Positions 5,039 to 46,281 of a stretch of DNA of 64,000 nt are shown here, one piece after another. A model generated the notes under the pieces. It did no database searches and was not told the origin of the DNA. It saw only the letters and a program-made list of their open reading frames with translations. The translations under genes and the position numbers were made by a program. The stretch covers positions 1 to 64,000 of the forward strand of contig JAPDLJ010000003.1 of NCBI GenBank assembly GCA_025920705.1, given 5' to 3'. Origin of the DNA: Candidatus Jingweiarchaeum tengchongense (lineage in GTDB: Archaea; Nanobdellota; Nanobdellia; Jingweiarchaeales; Jingweiarchaeaceae). Each line of letters begins with the position of its first letter. The first letter of the stretch is position 1.

Positions 5039-5042
5039 TGTT

Positions 5043-5717
5043 TTAGCCCTTTCTCTTTAAGATCAATCTAACTATTTCTCTGTTCATTGTTTTGATTTCA
5101 ATGGCTTCTTGGGTGATTTGCTCAGATAATCGCTTATTCAACTCTTTCAATGCATTTATCTGCACCATTATGTCTTTAATTTCCTCCTCTAATTTCAGCA
5201 ATCTCTCCTCAACCCCAAATATCACTTCTTTTTTCTCAATTTTCTTCTTCTCTTCAACTCCTTCCCTTTTCTCCTCAATTATCTTTTCTTCTGCTTTTTC
5301 TGTTGTAACTTCCTCTTTCTTACTCTCAACTTCTTGTTTTATTTCCTCCCCATGGATTTCTTCACCAGTTTTTTCCTTTTTTATATATCTTTTCTTTTTC
5401 TTTTCTTCCTCAACTTCTACCTTTTCCTCTTCCTTTACTTCAGCTTCTTCCCCACCCTTCACTTCTATTCCCACTCCTTCTTCTTTTTTCAGCGCAGCTA
5501 AAACTTCTTGATAGCTCTTGTCAGAGATCGCACCTTTTTTATGCTCTTCTTCAAGCTCACTCAGGATTTCACTCATTCCCTTGATTTTTTCCTCTTTTTG
5601 TTCAACTTTTTCCTCAATTTTCTTTATGTCTTTTATAATCTTGCTTGTATCTTCTACCTTTTCCTCTTCGTCTTTCTTTTTCTTCAAAATCTCTTTTATG
5701 TCCGGAATTTTTAACAT
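5043..5717 (-). CDS. 224-residue Lys/Glu-rich coiled-coil protein, cotranscribed with the giant gene
   Basis: A soluble, highly charged protein. Residues about 1-80 are helical with a GAISDKSYQEVLAALKK motif (about 61-77). About 85-160 is low-complexity E/K/V. About 163-200 is the coiled-coil segment shared with the next gene, and the tail is basic (IVRLILKRKG). The start at 5717 is supported by GGTGAT, a good match to the predicted Shine-Dalgarno, which overlaps the stop codon of the giant gene 6 nt upstream. That arrangement indicates translational coupling. It has no recognisable catalytic motif. A cytoplasmic partner or regulator of the giant protein is inferred from position only. Confidence 0.7.
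   Translation of the reverse strand: MLKIPDIKEILKKKKDEEEKVEDTSKIIKDIKKIEEKVEQKEEKIKGMSEILSELEEEHKKGAISDKSYQEVLAALKKEEGVGIEVKGGEEAEVKEEEKVEVEEEKKKKRYIKKEKTGEEIHGEEIKQEVESKKEEVTTEKAEEKIIEEKREGVEEKKKIEKKEVIFGVEERLLKLEEEIKDIMVQINALKELNKRLSEQITQEAIEIKTMNREIVRLILKRKG
5132..5216. repeat. 85-bp direct repeat, copy 2
   Basis: Second copy of the exact 85-bp sequence at 4732-4816. It lies in the C-terminal coiled-coil of the upstream gene. Confidence 0.9.
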
Positions 5718-5723
5718 CCCTTA

Positions 5724-6846
5724 TCACCCTTTTTTCAACCTCGTTTTTAATGATTCAATATAAGACTCTGCCATGTGTATTGAACCTTCTTTCAATTTAT
5801 CTTTTGCAAGATTCAATTCAAGCTCCATATCATATGTATCTATCCCTTTCTTCTTTAATTTATTTATCTCCTCCTCAACTTTTTCTATTTCTTCTTTTGT
5901 CTTAAAGTAATTCTTCAACTCTTCATCACTTAATCTTGAAGTATCGTGAAGCAATGGTCTGAATTGTATAAAGTAAGGAACACCATTATTATAAGCTGGA
6001 TTTTGGAAGAGACCACTTCCAATCTCCAATTTAGGTATTATAGAAGCGTACTGTGGACCATATTTCTGTTTCACTCTTCCAATATCACCTTCGTATTTCG
6101 TCCTTAGCTGTATCTCCGTCCCAATGTTTGCCCTTATCGCTCCTCTAAAGTCCATCAATACCTGCGATATCATGAACAATCCAATTCCCCATTTCCTAAA
6201 TTCTCTACATCCCCTCTCAAGCGCGGTGTAACCACCCTTTCCACCGTATTTCGGCAGTAATCTATGCACCTCATCATATATCAATAGTAACTTCAATTTC
6301 TTTGATTCAGGTAATGCTAATTTGAATATAGAGTTAATTGTATGTCTGACAAATGCATCGATGTCATCAGGACTCAATTCATTTATTGTGAATACAGTAA
6401 TTTCTCCAGATCCCCAATATTTCCTTATATCTATCTCCATCTTCGGATCAGTCACCCGAATGATATTTGTCTTGAAACCAGTCGCATTTGAAGGTTTAAG
6501 TCCAAAGCGCGCATAATTCTTTAACATTCCTTCATCCTTACACGGATTCATAAAACCTGTCCATTGTAGTGTTGGATCAAATACAATTACAGGAATTCCT
6601 TTCTTTAGCAATTCTTCAACAATCACCATTACTGAAACTGTTTTACCAGCACCAGTACCACCAGCCGCTATTCCATGCATCATTAATTGATTGATTTCAA
6701 GATATGCATTTCTGTCAGTATCCGCGATCCTGCCCAACCAGATTGTCTCTGGTCCAGCACTTGGAACTTTTGAAAAGTCAACAGGGAATGCATACTTCGC
6801 TCTCGCTCTCCTTCTCTCTAACCATATCACGTATAATCTCCTACCA
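5724..6846 (-). other. C-terminal cytoplasmic ATPase region of the giant protein
   Basis: Residues about 11,682-12,055. The order is a basic juxtamembrane segment, a short beta-rich region (ETIWLGRIADTDRNAYLEIN), Walker A coded at 6639-6662, an IPVIVFDPTLQWTGF strand, Walker B coded around 6270-6290, MISQ, RANIGTEIQLRT with a candidate arginine finger, and a C-terminal helical hairpin from about 11,985. This is the pattern of DUF87/HerA, VirB4 and FtsK-like hexameric pumps that move DNA or protein. All key catalytic residues are visible. Which subfamily it belongs to cannot be settled by eye. Confidence 0.8.
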
Positions 6847-9800
6847 GTGAACAGTAAGAATACAAGCGCAATAAGTGCGTATGTGAGAATTGATGTTGCT
6901 AAGTAAGATAATATTTTTATTGGGAGTGGGGTTTCAACAACCTTGAACGTTGCCAAGCTACTTGCAATTTTTGTGTCATAGTGAGCAATTGCCTCGATTA
7001 CGTACACACCAGGCTTTGCCTCACTTGGGATCCTTTCCTCTTTAGATACATCCAACGAATTTTCCACAGCTAATGTTTCCTCTCTTGCAACGATTAATTT
7101 CTTTGTCTGTACTTCTCTTATTGTATAGTTAAGCCAAACATCTACCTTCTTTGTTAATCCCAAGTTGTAAAGCGATATTGCAAATTTCACTTTTTCACCA
7201 GGATCTATTTCTGGTGTTAATATTTTGAGTTGCACATCAAGGAGCGCTTCTTTCTCTGGTATGACTTTCAATGTTGTTGCAACCCTTCTTTGTTCATTTC
7301 CAGCTGCAACAATAATTTCACCATCATATATACCGATTTGTGTAGAAGGTAATGTATAGTACTTGAATTTGATTGTTCTCGTTGATTTTCCTGGTAAAGT
7401 GAATGCAGGATTTTCAATCTGGATGTACTGCCATATATTACCTTCAACAGAAACAGTGACACTGATTGGATTTGGTTGGTTATTTGTTAGATCCAATGAG
7501 ACGATTTCAAATTCTCCTGGTTTTAATTCCACAGTAATTGAATTCTTTGATAACATTGTTGGCGCTGGAGTTATTTGTTCTAATGGTATCGTTGGTGCAC
7601 CACCAACACCACCCACCCCACCTGCCCCCCCAGCTCCTGCGCCCGCTGTAAAGTTTGCAGGTATGCATGCCTTTGTTTCTTCTTGATAAGTTGGTTTGTT
7701 TTTAGTTGTATTGCAATTGTTTAAATCAGTCCATTCCAAACAAGTTCTATTTTGTTGGAAGTTGATACATTCTGACCAGTTTGACCATGAACTGCACACC
7801 CAATTCTCAACACATACTTGTGGTGGAGGAGGTGGAGGTGGAGCTCCACCACCCCCTCCACCTCCAATTAATGGGCAATCAGAAGCGCAATTTAACGATG
7901 ATTCACCATACTCTAATTCACATTCAAAGTTACCACAAACATATTCAGCCAATGCATATGCTCTTCCCTGGATGGAAGTTTCATTTGACCAGACGATTTC
8001 ATTTAATGTATCAAGATGTGACCATCTTCTATACCATCCACTATAACACTTTAGATTTCCAAAATCCCAATCATCACACCTGTACACACCCAAATTATTT
8101 ATACTCGTAATGTTCATTTTATCATTTGAATAATTAAATGCAATCATTACATTACTATAATTTAATGTTGTATTAATCGAAAATCCTCTTAATGAGCCAG
8201 TACCAATGTTCTTTGCAGGTATATAACCAACTTTTACTGGATCAATGACGCTGTTAAAGATTGGCACCAAGAATAACTTGTAAGAAGCATTGAACATGTT
8301 TCCCTTCACGTCATAATTTCTTGCTGTTATTTCTTGTGAATAAATACCCGTTGTCGCATTTGATTCAAATTCATAAATCAAGCTGTCAGTACCCGCCCTA
8401 TACAATTGGAATAACACGTAAATTGGTGGCTTCGATGCAGACTCCTCATTCAACGCAGTACCATTAAACCAAATTGGGCTGACCACATCAAAGTAAGTGG
8501 TTGTTGTGTTACAATTTCCAGTATAATCGCAACACCTTATTACAGCATTATAGTCTCCAACTAAATTTGTACCCGTGAAGTTATATCCAAATATGTAACT
8601 ATCTGCCATCACACCCATCAATATCATTGGCATATTTGTATAAATTGTACCATTTGGTAATGTCACATTTAACATTGAGTTTTTAATCCCACCCATATCA
8701 GTTGCATTCACAATAATCAGAACAGTTTCAGAAGCATTTACCTTATCTGGAATCGATGATGCTGTTAAAATTGGAGGTATTGTATCATTATATATGATTG
8801 CCTTTCTCTCTTTGTCAAAGTATGTGATGTTCTCAGTTAAGTAATCTACACTTACATTCAAATCATAACCACGATTTAATGTTAGATTTGGTGCTTGTAT
8901 TCTCACAATCCAATAAGAATCTGACCAGCTATATGCAATGCTTGTGATGTTAGCTGTTGTATATTCATTTTCATAATTTAGAATTATCTTCCAATTCAAT
9001 TCAGAACCACTCGTGATTGGTAAGTTTGCATATGTTACATTTACATGAAGTTCAAGTGTATCATTTGGCATTACATTTATAAATGGATTTGTTTCAATTG
9101 GTGAAATGATGCTTACGGCATACGGATGCACAGTCAGATTTATTGTCGTATTCCTAGTTTGTGGATAAGCCGATGCATTCGACGTAATTAGATATTGTGT
9201 GAAATTTGTTTTGGAATTAACGGTCGGGACCGAGTAATTCACGCGCACAACACCACTTTCATTGAATGCAAGATAAAGCATAGTTGTGTTTGTACTTATA
9301 TAGCTCCCATTTACACTTACATTCAATCTAAGTCTTGAACTACCAAGATTATTTATTACAACATTACCAACCGTACCATTCGTTCCTTGTATTACATTCT
9401 TACTGATGAATACTGGAACGTGCTCCCACCAAAGTGGAACTGAAATGTTGAGCATAAATACTTCATATGCTTCAAGTGCACTTACATTGATTAATGCTTG
9501 GTAAATGCCATGCGTATAGTTCGGTGGTACTGTTATTGTTACATTCACTTCTACTCCTTCACCAACGTTTAATGCTTCGATGAAATCCGGATCGAAAGTA
9601 ATATTAAAGTCATTACATGGAATTCCAGATTTACATGTAAATGTGATGTTATGTAATGGTAGATTTCCAGTTGAATTCACATGGAATGTTGTTGAATTCG
9701 TTAGACCGATTATCGTTAAATTCACTACATTTTCAAGTACGTCAAGAATTGGATATTGTGTTATTTCAAATAATATTGTTGTTTTGTTTTCCCCCATGCT

Positions 9801-39800: not shown

Positions 39801-41891
39801 TCTGACCGTAAGGATATTCGTATTTTCTCTGAATGCACCAGGATAAACAGATGAGGTTAACTTGAGCTTATATGTACCTGTTGCTGCGTCATTTGTGATG
39901 TTTAAAAGTCTTGTCTCGAAATAACACGCATCAGCTACACCATTTGTACAAGTTAAAGCAGCGTTACTTAATTCATTAGATACTGAATGATCATTTGTAT
40001 CCCCGCCCCAGTATGTCCAGCCAGCGTACGGTAAATTATTATATGTTGATGCACCTCCTGGAAGAAGTTGCAGTCTGAGAATCTGTGCTGACGATGCTGA
40101 GTCATAGGCAGCATCAACGACCTGTACGCTTACATTATAGTATTCTCCTCTACAAACAGTTAATGTATCCGTTATATTACTTGTGTCTCTCCATCTCCAA
40201 GTCCATTTTACATAATAATAGAAAATTGTATCAACTGCGATACTCCATGGTCTCACTTCTTCAAAGCTCTTAGCTTCTGAATCTTGTATATAATCAATGT
40301 GTAATGGTCCAACTAAATAGAGCATCGGTGAGATTTGCGGCGTTTTATAAGTATATTCCAGAATTACATTATCAGATGGATTTTCATATTCCCATAAAAT
40401 GAATTTTCCGCTTTCATTCTGTATTACGATTCCATTGGTTTGTGTTATTATGAAGTCATCCGGTATCGGTTCAATTATTTTAACACTTGAAGCGTTGAGA
40501 TATGGTTTAATGTATATTTTCATTTTTGTTGGTGGCTCTGGATATATCACTGTCTCAGATTCCCGAAGTATATCGAACTCAACACTTTCACGAACCTCAA
40601 AGATTGTTTCATAATCAGCATCGACGTCTTCCCAAATAGCTCTTGCATAAATTTTGTAAATACCGATTTCTTCTGGATAATAAGTCAAGTTATAAGTTCC
40701 ATCACCATTACTAATTATCCCATCATTTGTTGAGAATTCTTCTATTTTACCAGAAGGTGTTATTATTTTTAATGAAATGGAAGCATCAGGTACTCGATGA
40801 CCATATTTATTTAGTACGCCAACTATTATCTTAGTTTCTTCACCTACTAAATAAATCGATTTTGGTGTGTTTATATTTACCAAGCCAACGGAAAACTCAC
40901 TCTCACTTAAAATTTTATCAAGAAGCATTAGTCTCAATTTGTATAAACCTGGTTTGAAATTTCTACTTGTATCTATCAAGAATTCTTTTCTTAATTCATT
41001 AAATCGAATCTGTGTTTCATTTCCTTCTGGATCAATTAGAATTACTCTTAATTTTCCGAGCCATTTTGTTATGTTTTCATTTGTTAATATTTCAAAATTT
41101 ATCTTTTCACCAATTTTAAAGGATTTTTTTGGCAGTTTAATTTCTATACGTTGTTCACCCACTTGTACCTGTTCCTGTTCTAAGATGCTCTGATTTTTGC
41201 TTATTTCTGTTGTTGTATCTTGCCCAGTTGCTAACCCATTCTGCGTTTCACTTAAAGAAATAAAATTTATATGTTCAATCGTAGAGAAGTTTTCGGTACT
41301 TGCAACAAATGTGTATTCACCACTTTCATTCCAATTGGCAGTTATTGTGAAATTGAAAGTATTTTCTGATAGATCCAGTTCTCTTTCAAACACACTCAAA
41401 TTACTCGGAGAAATGATCTTTATTTTTATGATTGTTCCATTCGTTTCATTGACAATACCAAAAATAGTGAGATTTTCACCATAACTTAGATTAAGTTTAT
41501 CTAAGATCACGATTTCCTGCCCACTTGATGGATTCAAGGCTTCACTAATATTAAGGATGCTGAATCCTGTAATACTTCCATTAAGAACGATTAAAGATTC
41601 ACTGAGCACAATTGCGCCAAAAATTAAAATCAATAAAAATTTTATTTGAGATCTCACCTGGGATTTTGCACTGAGCTTATTACTTTTGTAATTCATCTGT
41701 TCTTTCAAAAACCAAAGATGCCTGCCACTCGTGCTGATTCTATCAATCTTATCTTCTATCTGCATCTCTAGAAGTATTTCATGTACTCTATGCCAAGATA
41801 TATTTAATTCCTCAGCAATTTCACCAGTACTTCTAGGGCTACTTCTTTTGAGAAGTTCCAGTATTTTTTCCTTGATTTCTTTATGATTCAT
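5724..41891 (-). CDS. Giant 12,055-residue membrane protein: winged HTH, TM, Ig-like repeat ectodomain, TM, HerA/FtsK-type ATPase
   Basis: One uninterrupted frame of 36,168 bp. Residues 1-65 are a winged HTH (GEIAEELNISWHRVHEIL). Residues about 84-103 are a TM helix after a basic segment. Then come about 11,550 residues of beta-sandwich modules dense in N-x-S/T sequons and paired cysteines, including about 23 related units of about 330 residues. A Cys-rich TSP1-like module with Gly/Pro linkers (about 11,316-11,435) follows, then Ig-like domains, TM2 (about 11,658-11,682) with basic flank GRRLYVIWLERRRARAK, and a HerA/FtsK-superfamily ATPase with Walker A GGTGAGKT (11,744-11,751), Walker B LLLIYDEVH (D11873, E11874) and a sensor-like MISQ. 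A helical hairpin ends it. Both termini should be cytoplasmic. Function is unknown: a contact organelle coupled to a DNA or protein pump is one possibility. A misassembly within repeats cannot be excluded, but the frame is never broken. Confidence 0.9.
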   Translation of the reverse strand: MNHKEIKEKILELLKRSSPRSTGEIAEELNISWHRVHEILLEMQIEDKIDRISTSGRHLWFLKEQMNYKSNKLSAKSQVRSQIKFLLILIFGAIVLSESLIVLNGSITGFSILNISEALNPSSGQEIVILDKLNLSYGENLTIFGIVNETNGTIIKIKIISPSNLSVFERELDLSENTFNFTITANWNESGEYTFVASTENFSTIEHINFISLSETQNGLATGQDTTTEISKNQSILEQEQVQVGEQRIEIKLPKKSFKIGEKINFEILTNENITKWLGKLRVILIDPEGNETQIRFNELRKEFLIDTSRNFKPGLYKLRLMLLDKILSESEFSVGLVNINTPKSIYLVGEETKIIVGVLNKYGHRVPDASISLKIITPSGKIEEFSTNDGIISNGDGTYNLTYYPEEIGIYKIYARAIWEDVDADYETIFEVRESVEFDILRESETVIYPEPPTKMKIYIKPYLNASSVKIIEPIPDDFIITQTNGIVIQNESGKFILWEYENPSDNVILEYTYKTPQISPMLYLVGPLHIDYIQDSEAKSFEEVRPWSIAVDTIFYYYVKWTWRWRDTSNITDTLTVCRGEYYNVSVQVVDAAYDSASSAQILRLQLLPGGASTYNNLPYAGWTYWGGDTNDHSVSNELSNAALTCTNGVADACYFETRLLNITNDAATGTYKLKLTSSVYPGAFRENTNILTVRVINCTNANLVRDIKIYSPTGEDQKIIRGHIAFIAVPLANYNTTASVSGNVTVSLWDGDTQLDWFFWDNTTKPFSIGATSTIPYWNESILTWRFEVPEDIPQKTYTLKVEINQTNRPTLTYTKTFDIYQSEEGNLAPLIIFTTYPNRGTGDSGSRNYQRLSVCNFGDYNLTVNITVYPSGQSPSTAPTIIEGPSANTITASLVQWLNREIPTSSCFNATIQWVGPEEASADGQFVTEVVWVDPVTQSSQTITKTDTFISANAATGHSGSPDPFLNITEIGESSSATIQYAIRTGSATAGYVYVIDLWIPPGFNISRDSFSGGYTPDPGYPVGSMYEGWWIRWSRLGAFTNGYITTSTTIGGLVTISNIQTTIGSILQFAPGGKPWYQNLLGEAARNKGEWWTKNKRTITLLGPWIKTIRNYYDASSSQWLIGFPSSFGCGTFNVSFQVFNKGNQPGSNFNFTENKENLTVTHPQDLIFQNTWSSEGSPATINDSVKITWDNNINFQSPYGKPYSKYYNYTLNVTYQTNGTFRFQAIPLNGTLIYYNKPYIFSASCGASLNVSKPTTIPSTIYAGDVFNISSTIYNAGPGNASNVIVEINYTGKFEVRNSTNEISNLTYLGTIGPLQSRNAHTDYTYIVNTSGTTPGTYTFCIKANATENSTIVFNCKDVQVLAPPASIEMENATIVSNETGSSSGAWGFNFTFNITVRVSNSENNVSVCAWFSKTGSEPWKQVGNCQIYQAPGSGTGQWTNFTFEFDPDCEDIGSTVFAKFNATNDAGTTNSTTKTFTITKDKTIFEDVIGNNTETRRGKTTTLLALRVRDANGTLITNLPITFYVTLDGSIYDVGTSNTTNSSAYANYYFQAKCSPKYQVGNQKWKAVISGQACYEDNSTENYYNLSILVTGDINLDFQKPDGSTNYTQEQKIPFLGATTDDCGDPLSTNVKFYANHSTAGYECSPVSQVGANAYTCDWNTNVTTPKGWYNTTMYAEANYYYSNVSYRLISPGLFYLFPIYKLENPSVIPSSQGWGYKNWNFSIISSSGDTDSYEVKLLLAKGSPTGFTECSDCVNQTPLNCSYPDCINQTKYWYKNFTSQDVGTWFYMFSLATESTSGYDSFVIKKDNTSIEYVSGNNSYANLTQAATFKVRVKDLIADTYNLTPATTVYFNVSYDGIYNYLVNSTTTDTNGIATVTFTPNCNFNPGAQKWFAWISEDSAYYSNISENFTITIDVTGCEPQPTIVEALSPIEVFQYNNFTINATISSLVSTSNDVYVTLNAPSEWQVDNRTKYIGSIGVGELKKVKWTINATTYGNFSISIYVNNSLGNDDTEYVNPIVWGYKYLGCPNARLTLKGIDVTSKVCSLDGVIGNDFDNESAEAKVDPGESILLEWDCGAIEPRVADIKIFWEALNGTANAVIIGYGKKEWFTVASTQIVTENITMKPLGPLGPDVGLFNNGSCGLQLRNYGPEPLMIDYVNASIYMIERVVVTDVTYLRSDDTVNMVISIKNPFNEWYNDTLLSINITNWDGNVSYYENSTYLNLTPNSLINYTFLVNTLNMPHEMLVVNTTLNFSDGNSTTRFERFYNIPEQVYLTLNPRMCPGTSETLNVELEGIHADENTIINVSVSVPPGWDVSPGYLEYVIFTPEDIKFEFNITSPNNAENATINVSISYLQEFLEFNITKLYQLNVSNANHSVIEVIRETPTRVYPNGVFESALVLHNKGCAPINGNVILKEEIKPGWTPANPNLLGGLNFNSSVDLENNLVIWQIAGFDVNEYGVATYQVKAPTTIGATGNMKWNLNYENVDWDEPHEFHHLQTANYTNESHIEFDLALWQLPDFPWNEPRSLQPNYTYNASLIVRNIGDTQANNWTIYLPIPGICDVTQVWNGSWNSSTRTIEWNLSNLNVRNTTYLNFTINCSSEGGIVLNPYAIKDTRGTINYTDYPNYVCSGASCDKTIYHTLQSPNKNYQRIINGGINFTFNATGENLTISELSIKTETDDNVESLFFERNFFGSIYFEYETIYNLTEDQSWRFRQLQHPLYLHSYATGTYGANTTSNITKIYYTWLYGLLFNETQHLFMKVKEYSYAPLLENATLYVNGNPSLTTGGWGEQFNFSVMVKDRFGRNVTVYAWHKKGVEDYNLIGSWECVNCASWTQANFSYDYSHLNISDNWYFKFNATNVDGSTEIGGYNFKVEKDDIDVINITPSWNENINRSTPYNFTLEIYDRDNQTPATLLEFGKGFIQISQFGSNTTYKTYYPQSPVVNESGYMTQTMTLSDWCPTANNFYLGQNYWKGGAIDSSYYNNNLTEPSPYNALLFWLMGDLSNSTIQSFNQNFTRGQTIAFSGSVIDDCSVTQTDPSKFGLEFRMMQNGNVYGTCITTTGFSCQIETNSSFPYGWYNVTMIAFGKGENGNKYWNGTKNILNAFFLASNISLTNPQVQPHPEGSWEIKPFNFSLIVTSEDNQNVTIMLWLKNTTYNWFLENSTSCVNCNNFDYSYQKNFSCDNIDNWYFKFNASSVTGFSATTSETAFNVTKSAISINYVSGNNSQVNRSDSSENNKVNLTVQIWDLVTNNYTNVIDLSNVHFRVKANGYWLENENEEYKNETHYYREFNPNCSYTPGKKYWNVTVSGASCYKDNQTENFYIEIYGNLLNQIVLPDGSANYTKGENITFRGRVLDDCNQPVTGLESRIEFKIQSGSNVYYCKGVGNVTYDGNGYYNCTWNSSEAISGGWFNVTMNSWNDYYNNGTDLKTNAFFLRTPVVLSAAQVNPNPGGWGETFNFSVTVTHYANVNVCLLEKMTATSNYQITECKYIQNPSNTLVNFTRNYSCSDYQDAALKYYKFNASEPGEPDTYAETTESSHLLEKDDIDIIYIAGNNSQVNRSGTPTKFILFVNDTDAGIPAYNPSYGAAKIWFKVHNGTTYIIPGWNTTNSSGYVEYNFAPNCSYEAGNRNWYAYSSADSCYKDKNSDTFNVVIKGFLTPNVTFPNGQTYQREQYLTINITGDVYDECNLHYFAGANVNFTIKSVAFPGTNYFCDEINDLGNGTYNCTWNATDAVQGWYNVEMNASNINFYNNGSSTKNNAFNIVQVWQPPVLKNETVLPEQDWGWGENFTFKVNVSDANGENVNVSLWISPDNLTWQYVSSQICYDCGTEQELVFYYKGFTCDYIPTAYFKFNASDAHNTTDRAGIDFTLDKDDVVIEYVLGNNSQVNRSESTLLGVRINDTDNKSYVFSGVNVSFWVTFDQSNFDNGGINTTNSDGYVNYGFIPNCSYSVGQQYWKAGTVNNSCYKNVNSTQNYTLTIKGWLNNILIEPNGNTEPGGDNVYQQYSNVTFEANVTDECGIKISNGNVSFNVSRIGYETFACYANNYTDGYYNCTWNSTDLAGGLYDVKMFSYTENYNSNLTTYTNAMFIEVPPNLFGLNVSPSSVPWGVNINFYCNVSDRDDVVNVSLWVKKISDTSFTLKDSQNVTNPINTRVTFTESFSSSQIGEYEWKINVTDKYGQTNESFGGYFNITKRNVYFEYIAGNNTNVSRIGSNVTLLSVKVIDAVEPGRGISGPTGKLYVTTDQSNYILDSTTSAVSNYLNFSFNPSCSYAVNLQYWKIGFESDYYFANNSSAYFVNILSVLNSNITQPNGEVIAVGESLIVNANVSDDCGSVSGATIKQFNVMQDGSSYHTCNANDLGNGNYTCTFDTTGDPLGWYNVSFNVSKNFYNGTFVEKINAFQLRARSQLSGAGAHPSSEGWGYNFTLNVSVQDSDPDDVVNVSLWKAYNQNGPWIYLESKNCTNCLSENTLNFYPVFTCNDLQSGPIVYFKFNSSDNYNLTKTSSIFNITFQKDNVSFIVEQGSGITINREGINYGTFIVLINDTDKGIPVPQGLNGYFNFSYNTTPVWDSDHTNTTDENGRISYYGFDPNCSYSTGMQYWKLTINGGDCYETKEMTSWESYYLYGQLKNNLEKPDSLVYNVSDQIPIRFNVSTDCSDEGLINDVSSITIKLIHNQTGNEYSCTNINNEGNGWYNCTWNSTNKPEGNYSVRIETSRNYYNNNITIYWNRFWLENINPYYSNLIVTPSEGGFGDVYRYNVTIDDPENDTVVCKLYVNTTGEWIYKGSSTVTNGKGNCSITVNDFTCNDYLLQAENSFIFELNDSTNVINTTIASGPILHKDIVNVTYIAGNNTNVNRYGASQQLKLRIYDLNRSQPAINPNGTIWITNDSQNYNFAYVINGDSNGYLTLDFDPNCSYSVGKQYWKGGVTNDACYVEVNSTENYTVNVIGSLFNTVIQPDGEKFLRGDNVTIRANVTDDCNVIIDPVTVNFTTKSLKTNELFICEPVLSEGDGHYNCTFNTSSMPPKAYNLTMKTNKTNYNENITTLTYTTYGSNSFWIETKPELYYPNVTPQIGGWGETFILSVNVSDPDEDTDVVYFYKKQLTDANGNPVSDDWHLIGTSSGSSSTNRTATRTTTFNYQQQGNWSIMFFVNESVYESDVDLGNDTKILNITVEKNDVSIEYIAGNETTFNRVSENTTFILRVIDLDLGQSASGAKTSFWVTTNASDPNSWGPRIPGSDSNSTGHFYLYFPVGVNKCVYNVGKQKWKGGVYNDQKWKDANSSIFNVTITSEFTPKINQPIGPKNNPAFERGVDNIPLSGNLSDDANCGLVPGATVYFSVPSENAFYLATDTGYGNYTATILGGDTWNWNWGWHNLTMNGSKSYYADENSTYENAFYINHRPEFVEGSWSITPGSGEWGTTFTFEIKVKNFDGDNVTVYLWIRKSGGEWQLANQTTYYGPTPSEGATIKLNWTSNCDNVGQNEYKFNASDSWNFTTETPAPYDIFTIDKRTATIEYIAGDNVNVTREGTFLVPLIIKVTYNGEPIENVNGSFYLMNRTGWYRYNTTKTNSTGHLTYDFNPGCDFSAGSKAWNAGVENDNCYYDVFLSANKTVNIYGQLKNNLDQPANGTIYPTGTIINFTFNLSTDCIGDGLLSGATRSIELRSPSGVWESCTPVYDEGNGWYNCTWNSIYKEPGWWDVRINTSGINYYNTNSSIFEDRFYLQNQPMTYDNMNVTPQQAGWGRTYNYTVYIDDPDLDDVNCTLYISKDGNQTWLNKGSMIVNGVGTCSILVSDFSCDDMDSNTSYKFELNDGYHSLNTSIQTGPNITKDSVYIQHVFGHLQNVNRTYGSLQLKVNITDLDKNALLAQAVTVKFNITTDGLSYKLEGSNTSVNGIATYNFTPACDYNVGNQNWFTYIEGETCYFNNQSQIYNLTVIGSLNNTLIAPNGQEFLKGDNVTLEANVTNDCNLPMNATVNLSVISNWYGSEFFCSPIYNNSNGYYNCTFNTSSMPARWYNTKVNTSKQFYNTNVSIFNNSFFIKTQLTLQSPMVNTSAEDGDTSNVGGFSEKFNFTIRVTDEDGDLVTVRVWIRKWNESAGNWGEWTIPNPSVPYVTCSDCNNTLLSITKDDFQPSDIGTYQFMWNATDTHSYIANTTPLNFTVEKDDVEIQHVLGNNEWIWRNGTDVKYLTTRVYDIDSGTYLGTGVSGRIWMTHDGVNYDDGYELSTQPGGYFNYTFEPGCDYGIGVQYWKTGTLGNMYYKDTNSSTFNITIKSYLQENITRPQGENYKRGQSIYIETFVYDECDNGVPNANTTKIYLVTSGASYLITTGITDHNNGTYSYNWDSNGRSLGTYNLTFEVQKDNYVLVNNTKINAFILGEPPELRNPSVNKIIGGWGENWTFSIEARDIEADSFNITLWKRLTPSSEWVAIETKQISSKTDWTPATYFYETFNCSDITPQGEYTQYKFTAVDSHGFTNETIPSNPNITIEKDDIDINLLNGYGIVINREGDESGLLMVEVKDFDRNVGISAGISGRFYLTTDGVNYNIYYLNYTTSDSKLKLEFNPNCSYTTGKQYWVAGTYNNTCYKDVNTTNDKNPEPAYYLNITGQLKNNLDVPAKDSIFNVTDQILIRFNTTSDCEDEGLIPNAQVSIELRSPSGVWESCTPVYDEGNGWYNCTWNSIGKEEGYWSIRLNSSKSTFNPNSTVYYDWFWLENLNTTSGNETVWIYNYTTGGWEDLAGRTLGWSRKFNYTIDIYDKEGDNVTCSLYISKDNQNTWLFIGSYQVNGSPGTPTQARCEVIYQGFNYSNIGTNNWFKWEIRDAEQNNYYNTTPTNAPNLTKSIVNVSYIQGNNSFVNRSDLFTGNITTLILRVFDTENNSYVQSGVSVSFWVTNDGNNYILSNLSETNESGYAIAYFNPNCSYGVGKQYWIGGVANDESYQNANTSSNFTLNIIGSLLVNLSQPNGEKYQRGSNITIKGNVSDECGIDITNAVVNFTSIHVDTGQQFYCTPILNESNGYYNCTFNTSSMPARWYNINFTSNATNYNSNTTIYNNRFFVETKPFLFAPSVMPGSGGWGETFTFKVNVTDEDLDVLTVRLYTNTSTGGAWELKASNTSVSGINITVTFVIPSPAFSSALANSWRMFKFNVSETSVDFEENVNETVPQNFFIEKDNVTITHIEGNNSVINRSDPSSTIYFVVNLTDIDRNTQVNGRTIDFYSTKNLSYPNTFTKIGDAITASGGIANYTFNLYARGDKCDFEVGPQKWKAGLAGQSDLEDKNSTTFYFNVTTISLNVDLISPRSNEKYRRGPVNYDSIVVYANVSDECRLLTGASVNIYAEQSGIVYGSCTPAIDEQNGTYKCTFNLDDTWSLGNYNITINATKQYYNASQTITYVDAFKVVSQPELSNPSYSTFSSEGTSDGGWNESWTFSVSFRDKDAGDNVNVYLWVNLTGNWELLNSTIITATGGTQQINFVGHRFLPNNIGTRYFKFNATDGYNNTNESIVSNFVIKEDEVDSLLQTSDSSVNREGSAKGILRVKVRDLDAGIDLYEGVNVSFWVTTNASDPNSFDSGFINQTNSTGIAHYYFDPNCSYSVGSQNWRAGVFNDYRFVEFGVNASSTITVIGQLKNNLTYPYYQQNFNVTNLIPINFTTLSDCSEYREDENPVINAASYTIELRSPSGVWESCTPVYDEGNGWYNCTWNSTGKEEGYWSIRLNSSKSTFNPNSTVYYDWFFLNNLAPNVSEPIVSPSLGGWSRIYNYSINITDPENDTVTCKLYVKTISSFVYKGSSTIATPGTCTVSVHDFTCADKSNASFYFVVNDTFNTINTSEIFGISQGPNITRSNVELLHVYGDSTEINRTYGNGNLILRIKDIENDSYPSGVNATIWITFDNNNFDSGTNLQSNSTGYLNYNFMPNCSYSVGVQKWKGGVRNDACYVEVNSTDYNLTLIGYLQNSINNPNGEEYLRGSNVTIMANLVDECSIPISQANVSFILNKGSTNYSCSPVNDELNGSYNCTFNTSGYAVRYWNITMNSSKAYYHTNTTTKIDAFWVETAPILEAPSVTPEIGGWGETFTFKVNVTDEDLDVLTVNFWLRRKGEDWGSSPSGVNSSVSGINQTVTFVKTFIDGTAIGEWEYKFNVTEDDNWSDETITKNFTVEKDDVVIEYVFGNNSIVNRTTGSTYLTVRVKDIDKNVYLGSGVSGKFWITTDFNNYYDVFSPVTDNSGYLNFTNFAPKCSGPKYEIGPQKWKAGIVGNEWYKDTNSSVFNINITTIPIQVNLSVPNGGSYLRGIDPILIRGNASDECGLLSGVTIEFNSEKGETIYSCSPVYDEGNGWYNCTIPGVAHSGRPLGYYNITMNASKQYYDPSYVLKRVDAYYLATRPTLSNAYATSEQGSSVGGWGENWTFSATVQDLDANDVNVYLWVNLTGNWELLNSTTCYSCNNPTQINFFGHSFSCSNIGIRSFMINASDTKNYKANITNTFTIEKDNTVSQYVYGTGSYVDREGNSNTTLILRIYDTDNEQYVGANINSTIYVTLDGSAWDHGASLITNSSGYINYYFDPNCSYFVGVQNWKGGVRNDACYKDSNSSSFSLNVIGQLKNNLTKPIFNQTFAVGEIVNITFNLLTDCEDEGALPNAQVSIELRSPSGVWESCTPVNNLTNGTYYCNWNSSFKEGGYWDVRLNSTYSSNYHDNSTTYDDWFFLVNTPPNFGNISVTPSTAGWGDIFSYGVDIDDLQNDNVTCKLYVSKDNNTWYYKGSTYLSNGVGRCVINVSDFDCSWIGQNYFKFEIDDGTPGNAFNTSVFNEPNVTRDTVTIYYITGNNGFVNRTSTNTLLLSVRIYDNSSKSYVPSGVNGTIWITKDGSEYDSGNFNQTNSSGYLNYNFDPTCAPVKYEVGTQKWKVGLMDECYIQTNTTEYNLTVIGTLFGTITQPTGGNYLRGSTVQLRGEVKDDCLVGIENANVSLNVTNENLNVFSCTPVFELGSGYYGCDWNSGGKPARWYNATMMSNKTYYNSNVTVKSNAFFIETKPVFTNQSVTPEIGGWGETFTFKVNVTDEDLDNVTVSVWIRKIGDPSFTKANETIIISPINQTVVLTYKGFSGAQQGEWEYYFYGIDTRNYDNSSDTKNFTVEKDDVRIEHLSGNNTTVWRDTNEYSLLKVQIYDDDKNETLIPSQNVKFWVTYDGINYDSGTLNITDSSGIVIYYFDPGCEYNVGTQKWKAGTVNNDYFKDKNSSEFLVHIWSHFLPFIIQPNGESYLKGIDNITIKVNLSDECGGVSGANVLIKYKQGAFEDTCTPVYYEGNGVYNCTINSANLPSYGWYNISVNVTKSYYPVNYTFKENAFFLATKPVLSNPSVLPGSGGWGETFTFKVYLTDYDQNIVNITLWRKMLTDGNWTYIDSKNASGVGTEVVFTTNFSCAEIGQNQYKFNATDVWGYTNETIVLNFTIERDNATVERTYGDGTTVQRGSTQSFRIKIKDTDRNMYVGAGVNGTIWFTRDGSQFDYNLSCTTTSDSLCTVYYTPDCNSTVGQQYWKGGAIDACYQIVNSSNGNFNVRGQLIVNISSPSNNTNVKRLDYVQFNSSVKDECNLTVDDSTVSWYNESDILLATGYNTTWQVPSMYKINKTIIKSIASRTNYLNGSSNVTLFVYGWSYVANITPANGTNFLAGTMVDVTCNVKDLHTQENISNYNVSFYKDNVFKASEMTDAFGNAIWTWDTTNESSGNYLILCNITNFTENFYYVSSQNSKNTTIIINRPLIIDQILVDNSTIYRNNSFLPYASNISVHVRDANIGDAENASVWFYNTTDLFDNCTTNAQGWCSIIYNPDDATLPGTYTIYINSTKTGMEPSTTHSTSITVRGRLNITITQPAENSSWNKASTIPLQANLKDENGNPISATVEWFDQFNNLIGTGTSTTWQPVNAIPGYQNITVKATKIYYDTGTDVRWITINGIANVVLLYPNPGQILPYPYNITLKCKVEDADSLEGIPNYTLKMWYNFTPYEINYIGTFNTSSDGTVEYNWTPPEKGNITFKCNITNDPAKFYDAGTAESSVDAWIKDEEAPIINNTLIQPTIEIEANKDQVMINASVWDNYGIAYDKVWVVIGLPNGSYENKTMNYLGSHPRRIGNYRVYYYPYLHGEHNVTIYAQDESPESNVNSTFAGYFYVWGKTNAKIEQVREVMIPNITIIDSYSFPLKINFTNLGPTPTYYTTLNIIETSGYTSFNTTSTDCGNVSVNNSCLWYVLVTVKNGTPPSTIYVYTNATWMNPDKSYNGTQNYTMLRVASNPVINIYEGLNFTIWHGNSSQKNLTIQSLGNDYLRDINIDTVGGNMSTGCPTCMITFVPSGYGFLATGENLTSLVTVSVPLGQSPGFYWTYINANASNAGSNLKALNLTVPLDKNWSVYPENVGMIKVPVNTSGTLSRINVTNIGNVKMWYNVSRVGNGTQFTGFITIVTPDYLSVEKQTTRDVEVNYSAAINAIRGIYQLQIVFEETEDKVQKFSTMWLNVTNPEPIIQNVTITPINVEKGYENVTISAIVTDNLGVSHVWTNITRPDNETEKVYLNANNSNYSIVYSPNLTGEYKLIVCANDTENVLGCTSQMEFFVIDNTSFMISPNVTHVIIPDMDVHQNKTVPINVTIKNIGHARGYYVNMSIQVPENWSSQPSSFKYGEVLKNTSVTNITNIIVPAGEGVGNYTVNITLVWLNINGSMGENKTTILFEITQYPILDVLENVVNLTIIGLTNSTTFHVNSTGNLPLHNITFTCKSGIPCNDFNITFDPDFIEALNVGEGVEVNVTITVPPNYTHGIYQALINVSALEAYEVFMLNISVPLWWEHVPVFISKNVIQGTNGTVGNVVINNLGSSRLRLNVSVNGSYISTNTTMLYLAFNESGVVRVNYSVPTVNSKTNFTQYLITSNASAYPQTRNTTINLTVHPYAVSIISPIETNPFINVMPNDTLELHVNVTYANLPITSGSELNWKIILNYENEYTTANITSIAYSWSDSYWIVRIQAPNLTLNRGYDLNVSVDYLTENITYFDKERKAIIYNDTIPPILTASSIPDKVNASETVLIIVNATDMGGIKNSMLNVTLPNGTIYTNMPMILMGVMADSYIFGYNFTGTNLVGDYNAVIRCCDYTGNCNTTTTYFDVVSPIWFNGTALNEESASKPPIYVLFQLYRAGTDSLIYEFESNATTGIYSQEITARNYDVKGNMFNASYKLFLVPIFNSVIDPVKVGYIPAKNIGTGSLRGFSINTTLNYSNVMIAFNYSNDKMNITSINNLGVYRCDDWDFGNLKCYSGWYRRWSHLDTLNEIVWSNETSIQGRAYALAEYVCGNFECELEYGESSLNCASDCPLIGGGGGGGAPPPPPPPQVCVENWVCSSWSNWSECINFQQNRTCLEWTDLNNCNTTKNKPTYQEETKACIPANFTAGAGAGGAGGVGGVGGAPTIPLEQITPAPTMLSKNSITVELKPGEFEIVSLDLTNNQPNPISVTVSVEGNIWQYIQIENPAFTLPGKSTRTIKFKYYTLPSTQIGIYDGEIIVAAGNEQRRVATTLKVIPEKEALLDVQLKILTPEIDPGEKVKFAISLYNLGLTKKVDVWLNYTIREVQTKKLIVAREETLAVENSLDVSKEERIPSEAKPGVYVIEAIAHYDTKIASSLATFKVVETPLPIKILSYLATSILTYALIALVFLLFTGRRLYVIWLERRRARAKYAFPVDFSKVPSAGPETIWLGRIADTDRNAYLEINQLMMHGIAAGGTGAGKTVSVMVIVEELLKKGIPVIVFDPTLQWTGFMNPCKDEGMLKNYARFGLKPSNATGFKTNIIRVTDPKMEIDIRKYWGSGEITVFTINELSPDDIDAFVRHTINSIFKLALPESKKLKLLLIYDEVHRLLPKYGGKGGYTALERGCREFRKWGIGLFMISQVLMDFRGAIRANIGTEIQLRTKYEGDIGRVKQKYGPQYASIIPKLEIGSGLFQNPAYNNGVPYFIQFRPLLHDTSRLSDEELKNYFKTKEEIEKVEEEINKLKKKGIDTYDMELELNLAKDKLKEGSIHMAESYIESLKTRLKKG
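7590..7945 (-). other. Cys-rich TSP1-like module with poly-Gly/poly-Pro linkers in the giant protein
   Basis: The translation shows VCGNFECELEYGESSLNCASDC, a run of seven glycines and seven prolines, a thrombospondin-1-like CVENWVCSSWSNWSEC segment with RTC, then an Ala/Gly-rich linker (GAGAGGAGGVGGVGG). The same CGxGxC...NCxxDC plus Pro/Gly linker architecture occurs in the 50,478 gene. These look like disulfide-bonded spacers between rigid extracellular parts. The Gly/Pro junction DNA at 7817-7868 is itself a near palindrome around GGTGGAGCTCCACC. Confidence 0.7.
12960..33560 (-). repeat. About 21 tandem units of roughly 0.94-1.03 kb within the giant gene
   Basis: Each unit of about 330 residues has three beta-sandwich parts. 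Part a opens with GGWGETFTFKVNVTDED and ends with a VEKDDVxIEYVxGNN..VNR box. Part b ends with PNCSYxVGxQxWKxG..NDxCY. Part c has PNGExYxRGxNVTIxANVxDEC, then CxPV and YNCTWN. Unit starts, read from the WGE box, lie near 33545, 32525, 31545, 30545, 29575, 28640, 27650, 26680, 25660, 24685, 23745, 22735, 21720, 20690, 19670, 18665, 17720, 16740, 15770, 14800 and 13850. Conserved cysteines suggest disulfides, hence an extracellular location. I counted about two dozen N-x-S/T sites in the unit starting near 30545. Confidence 0.9.
13860..28640 (-). repeat. Higher-order repeat: five blocks of three different units, period about 3 kb
   Basis: Units recur in an A-B-C order. Type A carries GQLKNNL and often RSPSGVWESC. 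Type B carries a D-x-x-N/D-D-x-V-x-C-x-LYV box. Type C carries GGWGETFTFKVNVTDEDLD. Blocks start near 28640, 25660, 22735, 19670 and 16740. DNA copies are very close: 18697-18783 equals 21754-21840 over 87 bp and the match continues with 2 mismatches to 18872, with a further copy of the second half near 24806. 17632-17697 equals 20605-20670 over 66 bp. Confidence 0.8.
33560..36110 (-). other. Non-repeat spacer region inside the giant protein
   Basis: About 850 residues between the second and third repeat units with no PNCSY, KDD or GWGE boxes. They look like a run of NEW1/CARDB-like Ig folds (for example PPGWDVSPGYLEYV and KPGWTPANPNLLGG segments) with sequons. They mark a change of architecture close to the N-proximal end of the ectodomain. 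No known binding domain is recognised. Confidence 0.55.
36110..37765 (-). repeat. Two divergent repeat units separated from the main array
   Basis: Units with the same part a/b/c order begin near 37745 (GAWGFNFTFNITV) and 36765 (QGWGYKNWNFSI). They keep the VGNQKWK and PGAQKWF boxes, but the second lacks part c. They are less similar to the rest and are probably the oldest copies. Confidence 0.75.
41583..41891 (-). other. N-terminal cytoplasmic winged HTH and first TM of the giant protein
   Basis: Residues 1-65 form a compact wHTH (helices at 3-16, 22-29 and 33-43, wing near 50-62). A basic linker and TM helix at about 84-103 (FLLILIFGAIVLSESLIVL) follow, then the GSITGF motif. A membrane-tethered HTH on the same polypeptide as an ATPase and a giant ectodomain suggests surface-to-gene signalling or DNA handling at the membrane. 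That role is inference. Confidence 0.75.
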
Positions 41892-41897
41892 TAACTA

Positions 41898-41926
41898 GAC
41901 CTTTTGCAGACTATCTGCTATAGGTC
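41898..41926 (-). promoter_or_regulatory. Hairpin just upstream of the giant gene start, covering its Shine-Dalgarno
   Basis: In the mRNA an outer stem GACCT/AGGTC and an inner stem GCAGA/TCTGC with a TAG loop form a bulged hairpin ending 6 nt before the ATG. The AGGT that could pair with the 16S 3' end lies in the 3' strand of the outer stem, so folding would hide it. Confidence 0.5.
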
Positions 41927-41973: not shown

Positions 41974-41983
41974 TTATTTATAA
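41974..41983 (-). promoter_or_regulatory. TATA box of the giant gene
   Basis: Read on the minus strand this is TTATAAATAA preceded by an AAAAGC BRE-like sequence. The predicted transcript starts near 41950 and leaves about a 60-nt leader holding the hairpin at 41898-41926. Confidence 0.6.
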
Positions 41984-41991
41984 GCTTTTAC

Positions 41992-42023
41992 AAGTATTTG
42001 TACAAATATTTGTACAAATACTT
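41992..42023. promoter_or_regulatory. Perfect 32-bp palindrome: two overlapping TATTTGTACAAATA operator-like sites
   Basis: The 14-bp palindrome TATTTGTACAAATA occurs at 41995-42008 and 42007-42020, and the flanks AAG/CTT extend the whole to a perfect 32-bp palindrome. It lies directly upstream of the BRE/TATA of the giant gene and overlaps the stop codon of the preceding gene. The two site centres are 12 bp apart, so two dimers would bind on nearly the same helix face. This fits a dedicated regulator site; the regulator is unknown. Confidence 0.75.
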
Positions 42024-44205
42024 AAGAAGTTTTGTTTACTAAAATTGTGATATTACCTGTATAAACATCAGCTACTTGCCCTGCTGGAACGAAAAGCCAC
42101 CAATAAATTGGGATTATACTACCACTTTGTATGTTCTGTTGGAACAATATGAATTGATTCAAGAGTAAATTCATTTTTGAAGCAGGATTTGAATTGTTTG
42201 CGCATTTTAAATTATTTACACTTATTGAACTTGCGCTTCCAATTAAATCTGTGTCTCCTCTCAGCCAAATCGATGTGTTCACATTTGATTCAATGTAAAC
42301 ATTCATTGGAAACCCCTGAATTCCTGTACCACATTCTGTTTTCGAACCATCACTCGCATTTATTTCTATTCCAGTTCCGGTCACGCTACCAAAGCAAATC
42401 GGATAATTTGAAAGTGTGACGCTTAAGAATTCTTCAACTATATTTACAGTGGTGTAGTCTGTTTTATTTGATTGTACATAGGGACTATCAGAAACAAAAT
42501 TAACATCGAGTTTGTAACTGCTCCCAACATTACCAGTGACATTCACGGTCCATTTTAAGCTGCAAGGTGGACTATTTAAATTTAAATTTCCACATTCTTG
42601 TGGGTTTGATTCAATCGTATAGAAAGGTATTGCATATACACCGTTCCCCTGTACATTCGTGTCTGGATTTGAGTTTGATGTATTGTATCTCAATGTACCA
42701 TTTACTTTTCCACAAACAGCACCCTGTGGTCCAGCGCAGGTAACATTTGCTATCAATACAAAAGTTTGATTTTGTGCATAATTATTCGTTCCAGTTGGCG
42801 ATATTAGTGTCACATTGAGATATCCGACCGGCGGATGGAATGATATTGAATAGGCCTCAAAAGTAGAAACCGTTGTGTCTGCTGTTATTATAGAATCACC
42901 GTAATTTACATAATTAGTTCCATCAAAACTGAATGAACCAATGTCAAAATTACTATTTAATCTTGCACCGATTATGTTGATAGTATCACTATCTGTTGGA
43001 TTCGTGTATAATGATATCCATGCGCCAGTTCCAGCATAACTTGAAAAAGTAGTTGTGGAAGAAGTACATAGTGGTGAACAGGTTCTTTGGCTTAGAGTTG
43101 TACCAGTCGTATCTGTATCCCAAACCAATCTACCAGTAGAGCCAGATGGGTTCCATGCAAAGTCAGCACATCTTGCTGTTGCCAAATCAACTGTTCCATC
43201 TATATTGGCTGTTATCGTCCATGAAGAACCATTCCAGTACATGGTATCTAGATCAGAGCCACTGTTGATGGAAACCGCCATTAAATCATCACTAGCAGGA
43301 TCTGCTTTTAATGTAAGCCATCTGGTATCCTGGTTATCCCCAGCATCCAAATCACCGATGTCTGCAACAGTCCAAGTTGAACCATCCCAATATCGTCCGA
43401 CTACTGCACCGATAGTGCCAGTCGCGCTTATGACCATGCCCTTACTTCCATCTGATGCGTATTTTACTGCTATGGCTTCATATCCACCCGTAGCAGTCGC
43501 AGCATCTGTTAATTCTACTCTATTACCCCAAGTGTTTCCGTTCCAAACCCAAGCATTTACATCACTACCCGAGGAATCAAAGCCGACTAGTATTATTTCT
43601 TCGCTATTACTAACAGGTTTTCTATCTAATTTTACCCAACTATATTGAAGATCACTACCACCATTAGCACTATCATCATCTATACAATATTCGACAGATT
43701 CTGAAAAGCTTGTTGAAGTTGCTGGCAAAATTTTGTAAGCCAAATCACAATTCACGCTTGTATTTAAAACACCATAAACCACTAATAAATCCCCAGTCTT
43801 TGTTTCGAATTCAATATCAAACCTTCTTGAGTGTGGTGTAGGTGCTGTGCTCCAGACTTGCCCAATGTTATTAGTGATAATCCATGAATTTGTGTTGTTA
43901 CAATTAGAAGTGCAAACATATGCGTCTAAATAACCATCATCACTTTGCGTAACTAAAACAATTTTTTCCGAGACAGGAGAATACTTAACTATCACTTCTC
44001 TTATAGGTGAACCTGCTGTTGGTAATTCGATTTCACTTCCCCAACTACCAGCATTAGATGAATTCCAAAATCTGATTTTTGGTGAATTTAATCCGTAGGT
44101 CCCAGTATTTGATCTATAAGCAATAATCGCATCCGTAGCGCTTACTGGTGACAGGGTGAAAGTTAAAATAAAAAAAGATAGCGCGAGAAGAAATTTTGAT
44201 TTCAT
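42022..44205 (-). CDS. Secreted 727-residue protein: propeller-like repeats, Ig domain, FGSxxPG-type C-terminal domain
   Basis: A signal peptide (MKSKFLLALSFFILTFTLSPVSA) is followed by about 430 residues with repeated W/Y-N/D-G-x-x-W blades (WNGNTWG, YWDGSTW, YWNGSSW), like a beta-propeller. An Ig-like domain (about 470-590) with LNVTLISPTGTNNYAQNQ follows. The C-terminal about 135 residues (VEEFLSVTLSNYPICFGSV to VPAGQVADVYTGNITILV) match the ectodomains of the 47,802 and 49,108 genes. There is no C-terminal TM, so it should be released or held by partners. It sits 6 bp after the LamG gene with a GTGA ahead of its ATG, so the two are cotranscribed. A ligand-binding subunit of the surface complex is inferred. 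Confidence 0.75.
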   Translation of the reverse strand: MKSKFLLALSFFILTFTLSPVSATDAIIAYRSNTGTYGLNSPKIRFWNSSNAGSWGSEIELPTAGSPIREVIVKYSPVSEKIVLVTQSDDGYLDAYVCTSNCNNTNSWIITNNIGQVWSTAPTPHSRRFDIEFETKTGDLLVVYGVLNTSVNCDLAYKILPATSTSFSESVEYCIDDDSANGGSDLQYSWVKLDRKPVSNSEEIILVGFDSSGSDVNAWVWNGNTWGNRVELTDAATATGGYEAIAVKYASDGSKGMVISATGTIGAVVGRYWDGSTWTVADIGDLDAGDNQDTRWLTLKADPASDDLMAVSINSGSDLDTMYWNGSSWTITANIDGTVDLATARCADFAWNPSGSTGRLVWDTDTTGTTLSQRTCSPLCTSSTTTFSSYAGTGAWISLYTNPTDSDTINIIGARLNSNFDIGSFSFDGTNYVNYGDSIITADTTVSTFEAYSISFHPPVGYLNVTLISPTGTNNYAQNQTFVLIANVTCAGPQGAVCGKVNGTLRYNTSNSNPDTNVQGNGVYAIPFYTIESNPQECGNLNLNSPPCSLKWTVNVTGNVGSSYKLDVNFVSDSPYVQSNKTDYTTVNIVEEFLSVTLSNYPICFGSVTGTGIEINASDGSKTECGTGIQGFPMNVYIESNVNTSIWLRGDTDLIGSASSISVNNLKCANNSNPASKMNLLLNQFILFQQNIQSGSIIPIYWWLFVPAGQVADVYTGNITILVNKTS

Positions 44206-45519: not shown

Positions 45520-46281
45520 TTATTCTAGTCTGAGTAAGAATCTAGCAATTTTATCAATTATGCTTCTCTCTTCCTCTTCTATGCCACAAAGCTTTTTTGC
45601 TAGTTCCTTGAATTTTTTCGAAGAACTTGCATTCGGATTCAGTAAAACAACAGGTATCTTGAAAAATAAACTTCTTGCGACTTCATCATCATGTGGTATT
45701 ACCGACAATATTGGAATATCACACATTTCTTCGATTTCTTCAATTTTCATTCTGTATTTTTTCTTATACATGTTCACAACAAGCCCAGTCAATTTTACAT
45801 TGTATTCATTCAACACATCTTTAACTCTCATCACATCAACAACACTCATGAAATTTGGATTTGCTACTAAAAGAACTTCGCTTGAGGCGAGTAATGTTCC
45901 CATCGTTTCTCTTCCGAATCCTGGTGCAGAATCAAGAAGTACGAAGTCTGCCATACCTAATACATCTTTTATCTTTTTCCTTAGGTTCACGATATCAACA
46001 CCAATCATGCTGTGCGAGGAAAGAGAAGCAGGAATGATTTTCACACCACTTTTGTGTTCGTATATTGCATCATAGATTTCATATTTTCCCTTTAACACGT
46101 CATTTATCGTAACAGAATAATCATGAATTCCGAAATAGAGCGCCAAATGCGAAGTAGATATATTGCAATCAACAATTATCACTTCCTTACCCAATTGCGC
46201 AAGACATACGGCCAGATTTGCAGTTACTGTCGTCTTACCAACTCCACCCTTTCCAGACATAATTCCAATTACCCTGGTCAT
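45520..46281 (-). CDS. MinD-like P-loop ATPase with amphipathic C-terminal tail
   Basis: 253 residues of the MinD/ParA family. A deviant Walker A KGGVGKTT lies at 11-18, VIIVDCN (33-39) is the switch I/A' strand, and FVLLDSAPGFG is the Walker B/switch II. The tail SIIDKIARFLLRLE can form an amphipathic helix as in the MinD membrane-targeting sequence. These ATPases form ATP-dependent dimers at the membrane and position cell machines. Its ATG overlaps the stop of the upstream membrane protein (ATGA), so the two are coupled. Position in this cluster suggests it places or clusters the surface complex; that is inference. No MinE-like gene is seen. Confidence 0.85.
   Translation of the reverse strand: MTRVIGIMSGKGGVGKTTVTANLAVCLAQLGKEVIIVDCNISTSHLALYFGIHDYSVTINDVLKGKYEIYDAIYEHKSGVKIIPASLSSHSMIGVDIVNLRKKIKDVLGMADFVLLDSAPGFGRETMGTLLASSEVLLVANPNFMSVVDVMRVKDVLNEYNVKLTGLVVNMYKKKYRMKIEEIEEMCDIPILSVIPHDDEVARSLFFKIPVVLLNPNASSSKKFKELAKKLCGIEEEERSIIDKIARFLLRLE

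Follow-up and report, generated by a model that had tools for sequence, protein, structure and literature searches.

A putative autoregulatory operator array at the promoter of a giant winged-helix fusion gene in Candidatus Jingweiarchaeum tengchongense

Described small winged-helix regulators and the giant-gene locus

Among the described systems, TubR-tubC, which combines type III plasmid partition with autoregulation and whose tubC iterons are 12 bp long, is by analogy the closest in behaviour to the locus considered here, a 32-bp palindrome at the promoter of a giant ORF in Candidatus Jingweiarchaeum tengchongense. TubR, a small winged helix, binds a series of repeats ahead of its own operon, forms a filament-like complex there, and represses this operon (PMC7762940, PMC5016525, PMC9178275). 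Its partner is the tubulin-like TubZ, whereas the partner in the module described below is a surface protein. No TubR homology was detected by profile search against PDB sequences or among the 50 best fold matches listed, and no tubulin/FtsZ family that would mark a tubZ-like GTPase gene was found among those ORFs scanned with Pfam in the window, i.e., the whole stretch of 64,000 nt analysed. RdfS, BldC, and lambda Xis are small winged helices which oligomerise along promoter or att DNA as head-to-tail filaments, in case of RdfS without a clear motif (PMC11963761). In contrast to this type, the sites of the window module are palindromic and sequence-specific.

FaeA/PapI-like proteins (Pfam PF04703) resemble the window module in being small regulators of surface-structure genes. 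PapI acts together with Lrp and Dam methylation, a context of which nothing was seen for the window module. Residues 1-63 of the giant protein match PF04703 weakly, although the gathering score is passed (24.0 vs. 20.7 bits); within the first 1000 aa of the protein the score is 17.8. As far as hydropathy and charge alone can tell, the order of an N-terminal winged helix, one TM segment, and an extracytoplasmic domain is reminiscent of ToxR and CadC, which belong to the OmpR-type winged-helix group. Trans_reg_C (OmpR-type) was not among the Pfam matches of the window winged helix, whose weak links lead instead to FaeA, HTH_24, z-alpha, and others. Furthermore, unlike in ToxR/CadC, the predicted ectodomain comprises ~11,500 residues, a second, C-terminal hydrophobic segment is present, and the fusion occurs in one genome only.

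Fold matches of residues 1-63 are Z-alpha, ArsR and MarR-type winged helices, with Z-alpha domains among the best (TM 0.86-0.91). The Pfam z-alpha score is weak and just reaches the cut-off (21.1 vs. 21), and the wing Trp of Z-alpha is present as W60. As differences from Z-alpha, the Asn and Tyr of helix 3, which we take to be the Z-DNA-contacting residues, appear replaced, and the putative operator is not alternating purine-pyrimidine. A Z-DNA reading of the locus (12 bp per turn, Z-alpha-like fold) was judged unlikely. No description of the winged-helix/surface-protein module considered here was found in the open-access literature, subscription papers not being covered.

The tandem palindrome and the giant gene

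The original prediction described a perfect 32-bp palindrome with two identical 14-bp sites whose centres are 12 bp apart, and this is borne out by the sequence (Table 1). The palindrome is situated in a 130-bp gap ahead of the giant ORF, directly upstream (minus strand) of GTAAAAG and the TATA box, and overlaps the final two bases of the stop codon of the upstream gene (42022-42024). In the minus-strand register, which is that of the giant gene, the region reads TATTTGTACAAA/TATTTGTACAAA/TACTTGTAAAAG/CTTATAAATA (slashes separate the elements). The degenerate third unit covers the purine-rich, BRE-like GTAAAAG and abuts the TATA box; the probability of at least 9/12 matches is ~0.001-0.004.

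Table 1. Positions of the promoter elements and protein segments of the giant gene in the window.
Feature	Position	Strand	Remark
Perfect 32-bp palindrome, AAGTATTTGTACAAATATTTGTACAAATACTT	41992..42023	.	two overlapping putative operator sites plus AAG/CTT edges
14-bp palindromic site 1, TATTTGTACAAATA	42007..42020	.	array unit 1 = 42009-42020, minus-strand reading
14-bp palindromic site 2, TATTTGTACAAATA	41995..42008	.	array unit 2 = 41997-42008, minus-strand reading
Degenerate third unit, TACTTGTAAAAG	41985..41996	-	9/12 matches to unit, 12-bp register kept
TATA box of giant gene, CTTATAAATA	41975..41984	-	directly after array
Nested hairpin GACCT-GCAGA-TCTGC-AGGTC	41898..41926	-	putative 5' leader just ahead of ATG; z = -2.5
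Giant ORF, 12,055 aa	5724..41891	-	
Winged helix-turn-helix domain, residues 1-63	41703..41891	-	presumed binder of array; AlphaFold2 mean pLDDT 95
Hydrophobic segment, ~residues 79-107	41571..41657	-	basic residues ahead (N-terminus inside)
Second hydrophobic segment, ~residues 11660-11691	6819..6914	-	

The second-longest palindrome in the window measures 18 bp, and the longest one in 4 Mb of Markov-1 sequence of window composition 22 bp, by which a chance palindrome is ruled out. The low chance probability claimed in the original prediction holds, but the 32-mer does not represent 16 independent pairs, because a tandem palindromic unit automatically yields a larger palindrome. The most fitting description is a tandem of palindromic 12-bp units. 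Three observations are independent, namely a 14-bp palindrome, its exact 12-bp duplication, and the matching AAG and CTT edges, and together they are far beyond chance; the 32-mer also holds the sole perfect 14-of-14 lag-12 repeat in the window. That the 32-mer has no function, having arisen when a 12-bp palindrome was by chance duplicated in tandem or being a scar of a mobile element or of the assembly, could still be presumed from its uniqueness in the genome and its AT-richness. We regard this as extremely unlikely: a scar would not reproduce the period, the caps, and the TATA-abutting position which are found in the family (see below).

In the 1.12-Mb, 92.5% complete genome, the exact 14-mer occurs only twice, both times in the 32-bp palindrome, and copies with 2 mismatches number 26 compared to 34 for the reversed control. 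The 14-mer is thus not scattered over the genome, its exact copies being confined to the giant promoter. A genome-wide regulon of the 14-mer was ruled out, as further exact copies are lacking and near matches are not enriched.

Due to its overlap with the stop codon, the palindrome might also function in RNA, with the transcript of the upstream gene (42022-44205) carrying a hairpin at its 3' end that aids termination or mRNA stability. The predicted RNA stem of 15 bp is strong (-16.2 kcal/mol, z = -5.95), but it is not followed by a U-run, and a hairpin explains neither the 12-bp tandem arrangement nor the TATA box next to the array. Considering also the array positions in relatives reported below, this explanation appears very unlikely.

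In the AlphaFold2 model, residues 1-63 form helices at 3-16, 22-29, and 33-45 and a two-stranded wing. Following the second hydrophobic segment, ~360 residues remain to the C-terminus of the giant protein, and hydropathy and charge, the only evidence on this point, suggest that both ends are inside with ~11,500 residues outside. The in-frame fusion of the winged helix to the giant ORF depends on a single T5 run, located at the junction right behind codon W60. With one T fewer, the winged helix would end in LWF and a stop, and the giant ORF would be separate and overlapping, as in the other loci; a sequencing indel as cause of the fusion cannot be excluded. An ATG remnant of an overlapping start at the junction was considered and dropped, since TTG is present there and the likeness follows from the LWFLK codons. 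Within the giant gene, a 12-bp palindrome, GTACAATTGTAC, recurs at window positions 18796, 21853, 24817, and 27778, i.e., in ~3-kb steps, which suggests that the giant protein contains repeats of ~1,000 residues in tandem.

Winged-helix genes and promoter arrays in related archaea

A direct search with the N-terminal 200 aa gave nothing confirmed in the named genomes, and a family alignment and profile were then used. Stand-alone homologues of the N-terminus are encoded by ORFs of ~60-70 aa in relatives. The window winged-helix sequence alone finds them at E values down to 3e-10, and with the A1/A3 profile it is matched at E = 1.5e-27 and 1.5e-25, the window itself being among the profile rows. 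Profile matches at E <= 1e-5 were obtained in 91 of the 378 genomes of the class, with ~50 genomes showing strong matches, usually one copy each; named matches belong to Pacearchaeota, Woesearchaeota, and other Nanoarchaeota MAGs. A weaker match (L085 of G260) is a 1,112-aa ORF of a more distant subgroup. The winged helix is single-copy in the genome of the window, and a search of the order to which the window belongs returned only this genome and no second one with the TATTTGTACAAATA version.

In ~90 other loci of the archaeal class, the winged helix is a stand-alone gene of ~65 residues. Typically, there is an out-of-frame overlap of 16 or 4 nt between its stop and the next gene, which encodes a membrane or secreted protein with an N-terminal hydrophobic segment. 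For 20 loci with extended DNA, partner ORFs reach 4,844, 4,296, 3,901, 3,352, and 3,027 aa, although a few of the partner ORFs at these loci are short or without a clear hydrophobic segment. Beta-helix, lectin, or Ig-like domains occur in some partner proteins. The window shares the winged helix of the A1/A3 profile, a large membrane or secreted protein immediately after it, and 14-bp palindromes with a 12-bp period at the promoter, and it represents the largest surface-protein case among the loci seen. Fusion in frame was seen in no second clear member, L085 being a weaker match. Where the other loci have a separate, out-of-frame overlapping winged-helix gene, the window has one continuous frame and is regarded as a variant. 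Several winged-helix genes of type C (L087-L095, with a VGRQNQFW wing) precede genes of small lipoprotein-like proteins.

Upstream of the stand-alone winged-helix genes, recurring palindromes were first recognised by eye. Allowing up to 2 mismatches, TATGAATATTCATA is present in 16 of 45 upstream regions, with 0.48 expected. Type-A sites are located at -1, -13, -25, -37, -49, and -73 relative to the ATG, pair spacings being multiples of 12; the one at -1 overlaps with the ATG and codes for MNIH. At many type-A loci, the 12-mers make up nearly the whole stretch from TATA to ATG, and the TATA register is biased (16/51 in one of 12, P = 2e-6, uncorrected for register choice). By an EM fit, very long upstream arrays were observed for the type-A loci L165 (13 units, 156 bp) and L141 (called as 15 units).

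The period was also recovered by motif-free autocorrelation, at lags 12, 24, 36, and 48 with z = 22, 13, 13, and 10 for type-A and z = 8.3, 4.0, 4.3, and 4.4 for type-B upstream regions. Control upstream regions of other genes at the same loci show a weak lag-12 excess (0.308 vs. 0.294), such as codon periodicity would produce, and lack peaks at 36 and 48. A strong consensus match is absent at about half of the type-A and at many type-B loci. Exact TATGAATATTCATA was searched in 20 genomes of relatives and occurs at 13 sites in 12 genomes, 12 of the 13 at a winged-helix gene. The single exact site away from any detected winged-helix gene is G370:C234:12240-12253.

Type-A arrays are located between TATA and the start codon, type-B arrays upstream of TATA, and type C has a single TATGATATATCATA palindrome. 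Positions of types A and B speak against the 3' hairpin of the upstream gene, and its terminator version, strong as the RNA hairpin is, was rejected as lacking both a U-run and a parallel in relatives. Type-B arrays end just upstream of TATA, in the best cases with inverted caps AAGTGCGAA...TTCGCACTT; L191 reads AAG/TGCGAATATTAG/TATTAATATTAG/TATCAATATTCG/CA, then TATA, and L184 AAGTGCGAATG...GAATGTTCGCACTT. The window shares this plan (AAG/TATTTGTACAAA/TATTTGTACAAA/TACTTGTAAAAG/TATA, with edges AAG...CTT), but its TATA-to-ATG distance is longer, 93 bp compared to 26-40 bp in type B.

The palindrome was observed to vary with the recognition helix, occurring as TATGAATATTCATA, TGCGAA..TTCGCA, and TATGATATATCATA in relatives and as TATTTGTACAAATA in the window. 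When up to 2 mismatches are allowed ahead of the ATG, TATGAATATTCATA is found at 28/60 type-A winged-helix genes (0.8 in shuffles), TGCGAATATTCGCA at 4/20 of type B (0.00 in shuffles), and TATGATATATCATA at 10/12 of type C (0.07 in shuffles); GCGAA/TTCGC caps are present at 13/20 type-B genes compared to 1.7 in shuffles. The resulting table of helices and palindromes is nearly diagonal, with the window as 1/1 and the type-C motif in 5/60 type-A loci as the largest off-diagonal entry. The subgroups were defined from protein sequence, but after some promoters had been looked at. Type A (SWNTAEKYLLEL) and type B (WHS..HCLKLQ) have recognition helices unlike that of the window, SWHRVHEILLEMQ, and palindromes unlike that of the window as well; the predicted pairing of the window helix with TATTTGTACAAATA is based on this single case and on the pattern of the family. 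In L096 (G146:C7), yet another helix variant, WYTAQMHLFKLQQ, is accompanied by its own near-perfect 22-bp upstream palindrome, ATTATACAATACATTGTATAAT.

Since the sites track the winged-helix gene and change with the helix, a dedicated autoregulator is supported over a global or third-party one. Nevertheless, the window encodes a TrmB-like (54492-55352) and a ParB-like protein (1788-2651) with recognised DNA-associated domains, a MinD/ParA-like ATPase is encoded two genes upstream, and parS sites are short palindromes, too. The 32-mer might accordingly be an operator of one of these proteins or a parS-like site. A third-party regulator would not explain why arrays in relatives follow the winged-helix gene and its recognition helix, the sites are restricted to a single locus, and neither candidate is supported by the comparative data, although no direct test was made. 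We consider a regulator other than the winged helix unlikely.

Predicted autoregulation by the winged helix

In the absence of binding or expression data, the comparative evidence makes it quite probable that the winged helix of the giant protein uses the 32-bp palindrome as a dedicated operator array for autoregulation. The original prediction had put forward this domain as a candidate regulator and had implied the cooperative binding of a dimer. Both points gain support, of a comparative kind only, from the 12-bp-period arrays at the family's promoters in dozens of genomes and from the change of palindrome type with the recognition helix. Winged-helix dimers are inferred to bind adjacent 14-bp palindromes with centres 12 bp apart, probably cooperatively, on an array of two to three units, and occupancy next to BRE/TATA would control transcription of the giant gene itself. 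A spacing of 12 bp corresponds to ~1.14 turns of B-DNA, so each dimer would be turned relative to its neighbour, and a row of them could follow a shallow superhelix. As read from the sequences, the window represents one version of a class-wide module, in which a ~65-aa winged-helix gene lies ahead of, and in most cases overlaps, a gene for a large surface protein, with a dedicated array of 12-bp-period palindromes at their common promoter.

Arrays of type A cover the start site and the leader, which would suit repression. Those of the window and of type B abut BRE/TATA from upstream, where they might obstruct TFB/TBP or, conversely, assist in their recruitment. The sign of regulation can only be inferred, autorepression being slightly more likely than activation.

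As the two genes are fused in frame in the window, tethering of the regulator to the membrane is likewise inferred; the DNA might be reached by the whole membrane-anchored giant chain or by a truncated product. It is tempting to speculate that the giant protein unites, in one chain, the roles of a surface molecule and of a transcription factor tethered to the membrane, with an ectodomain sensing contact or its own assembly and a cytoplasmic winged helix, bound to the 12-bp array, adjusting production of the protein, but this remains doubtful. The split pairs of winged helix and surface protein in relatives would then fulfil the same role via two interacting proteins. If the tethering is true, direct control by a giant surface protein over its own gene would be unusual.

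The 12-bp-spaced putative operator arrays ahead of surface-protein genes in many tiny archaea are a previously unnoticed set. For a recurring surface-protein module of uncultured, often host-dependent archaea, a group with hardly any known regulatory circuits, sequence alone yields a prediction of the regulator, of the gene under its control, and of the exact DNA site. Four helix types with four palindromes and one common 12-bp period provide a ready set for a protein-DNA recognition code.

Further features were noted around the giant gene. An (S/T)ITG motif after the N-terminal hydrophobic segment is present at residues 106-109 of the giant protein and in the partner proteins of L022, L023, and L026, possibly as a processing or anchoring signal. 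The giant gene is followed directly by two genes (3845-5717, minus strand) whose products of 224 and 397 aa lack a Pfam match and are candidate partners of the giant protein. On the same strand, the MinD/ParA-like ATPase gene and an overlapping gene for a protein with an NPCBM-like domain are located upstream of the giant gene, at 45520-47687 (minus strand).
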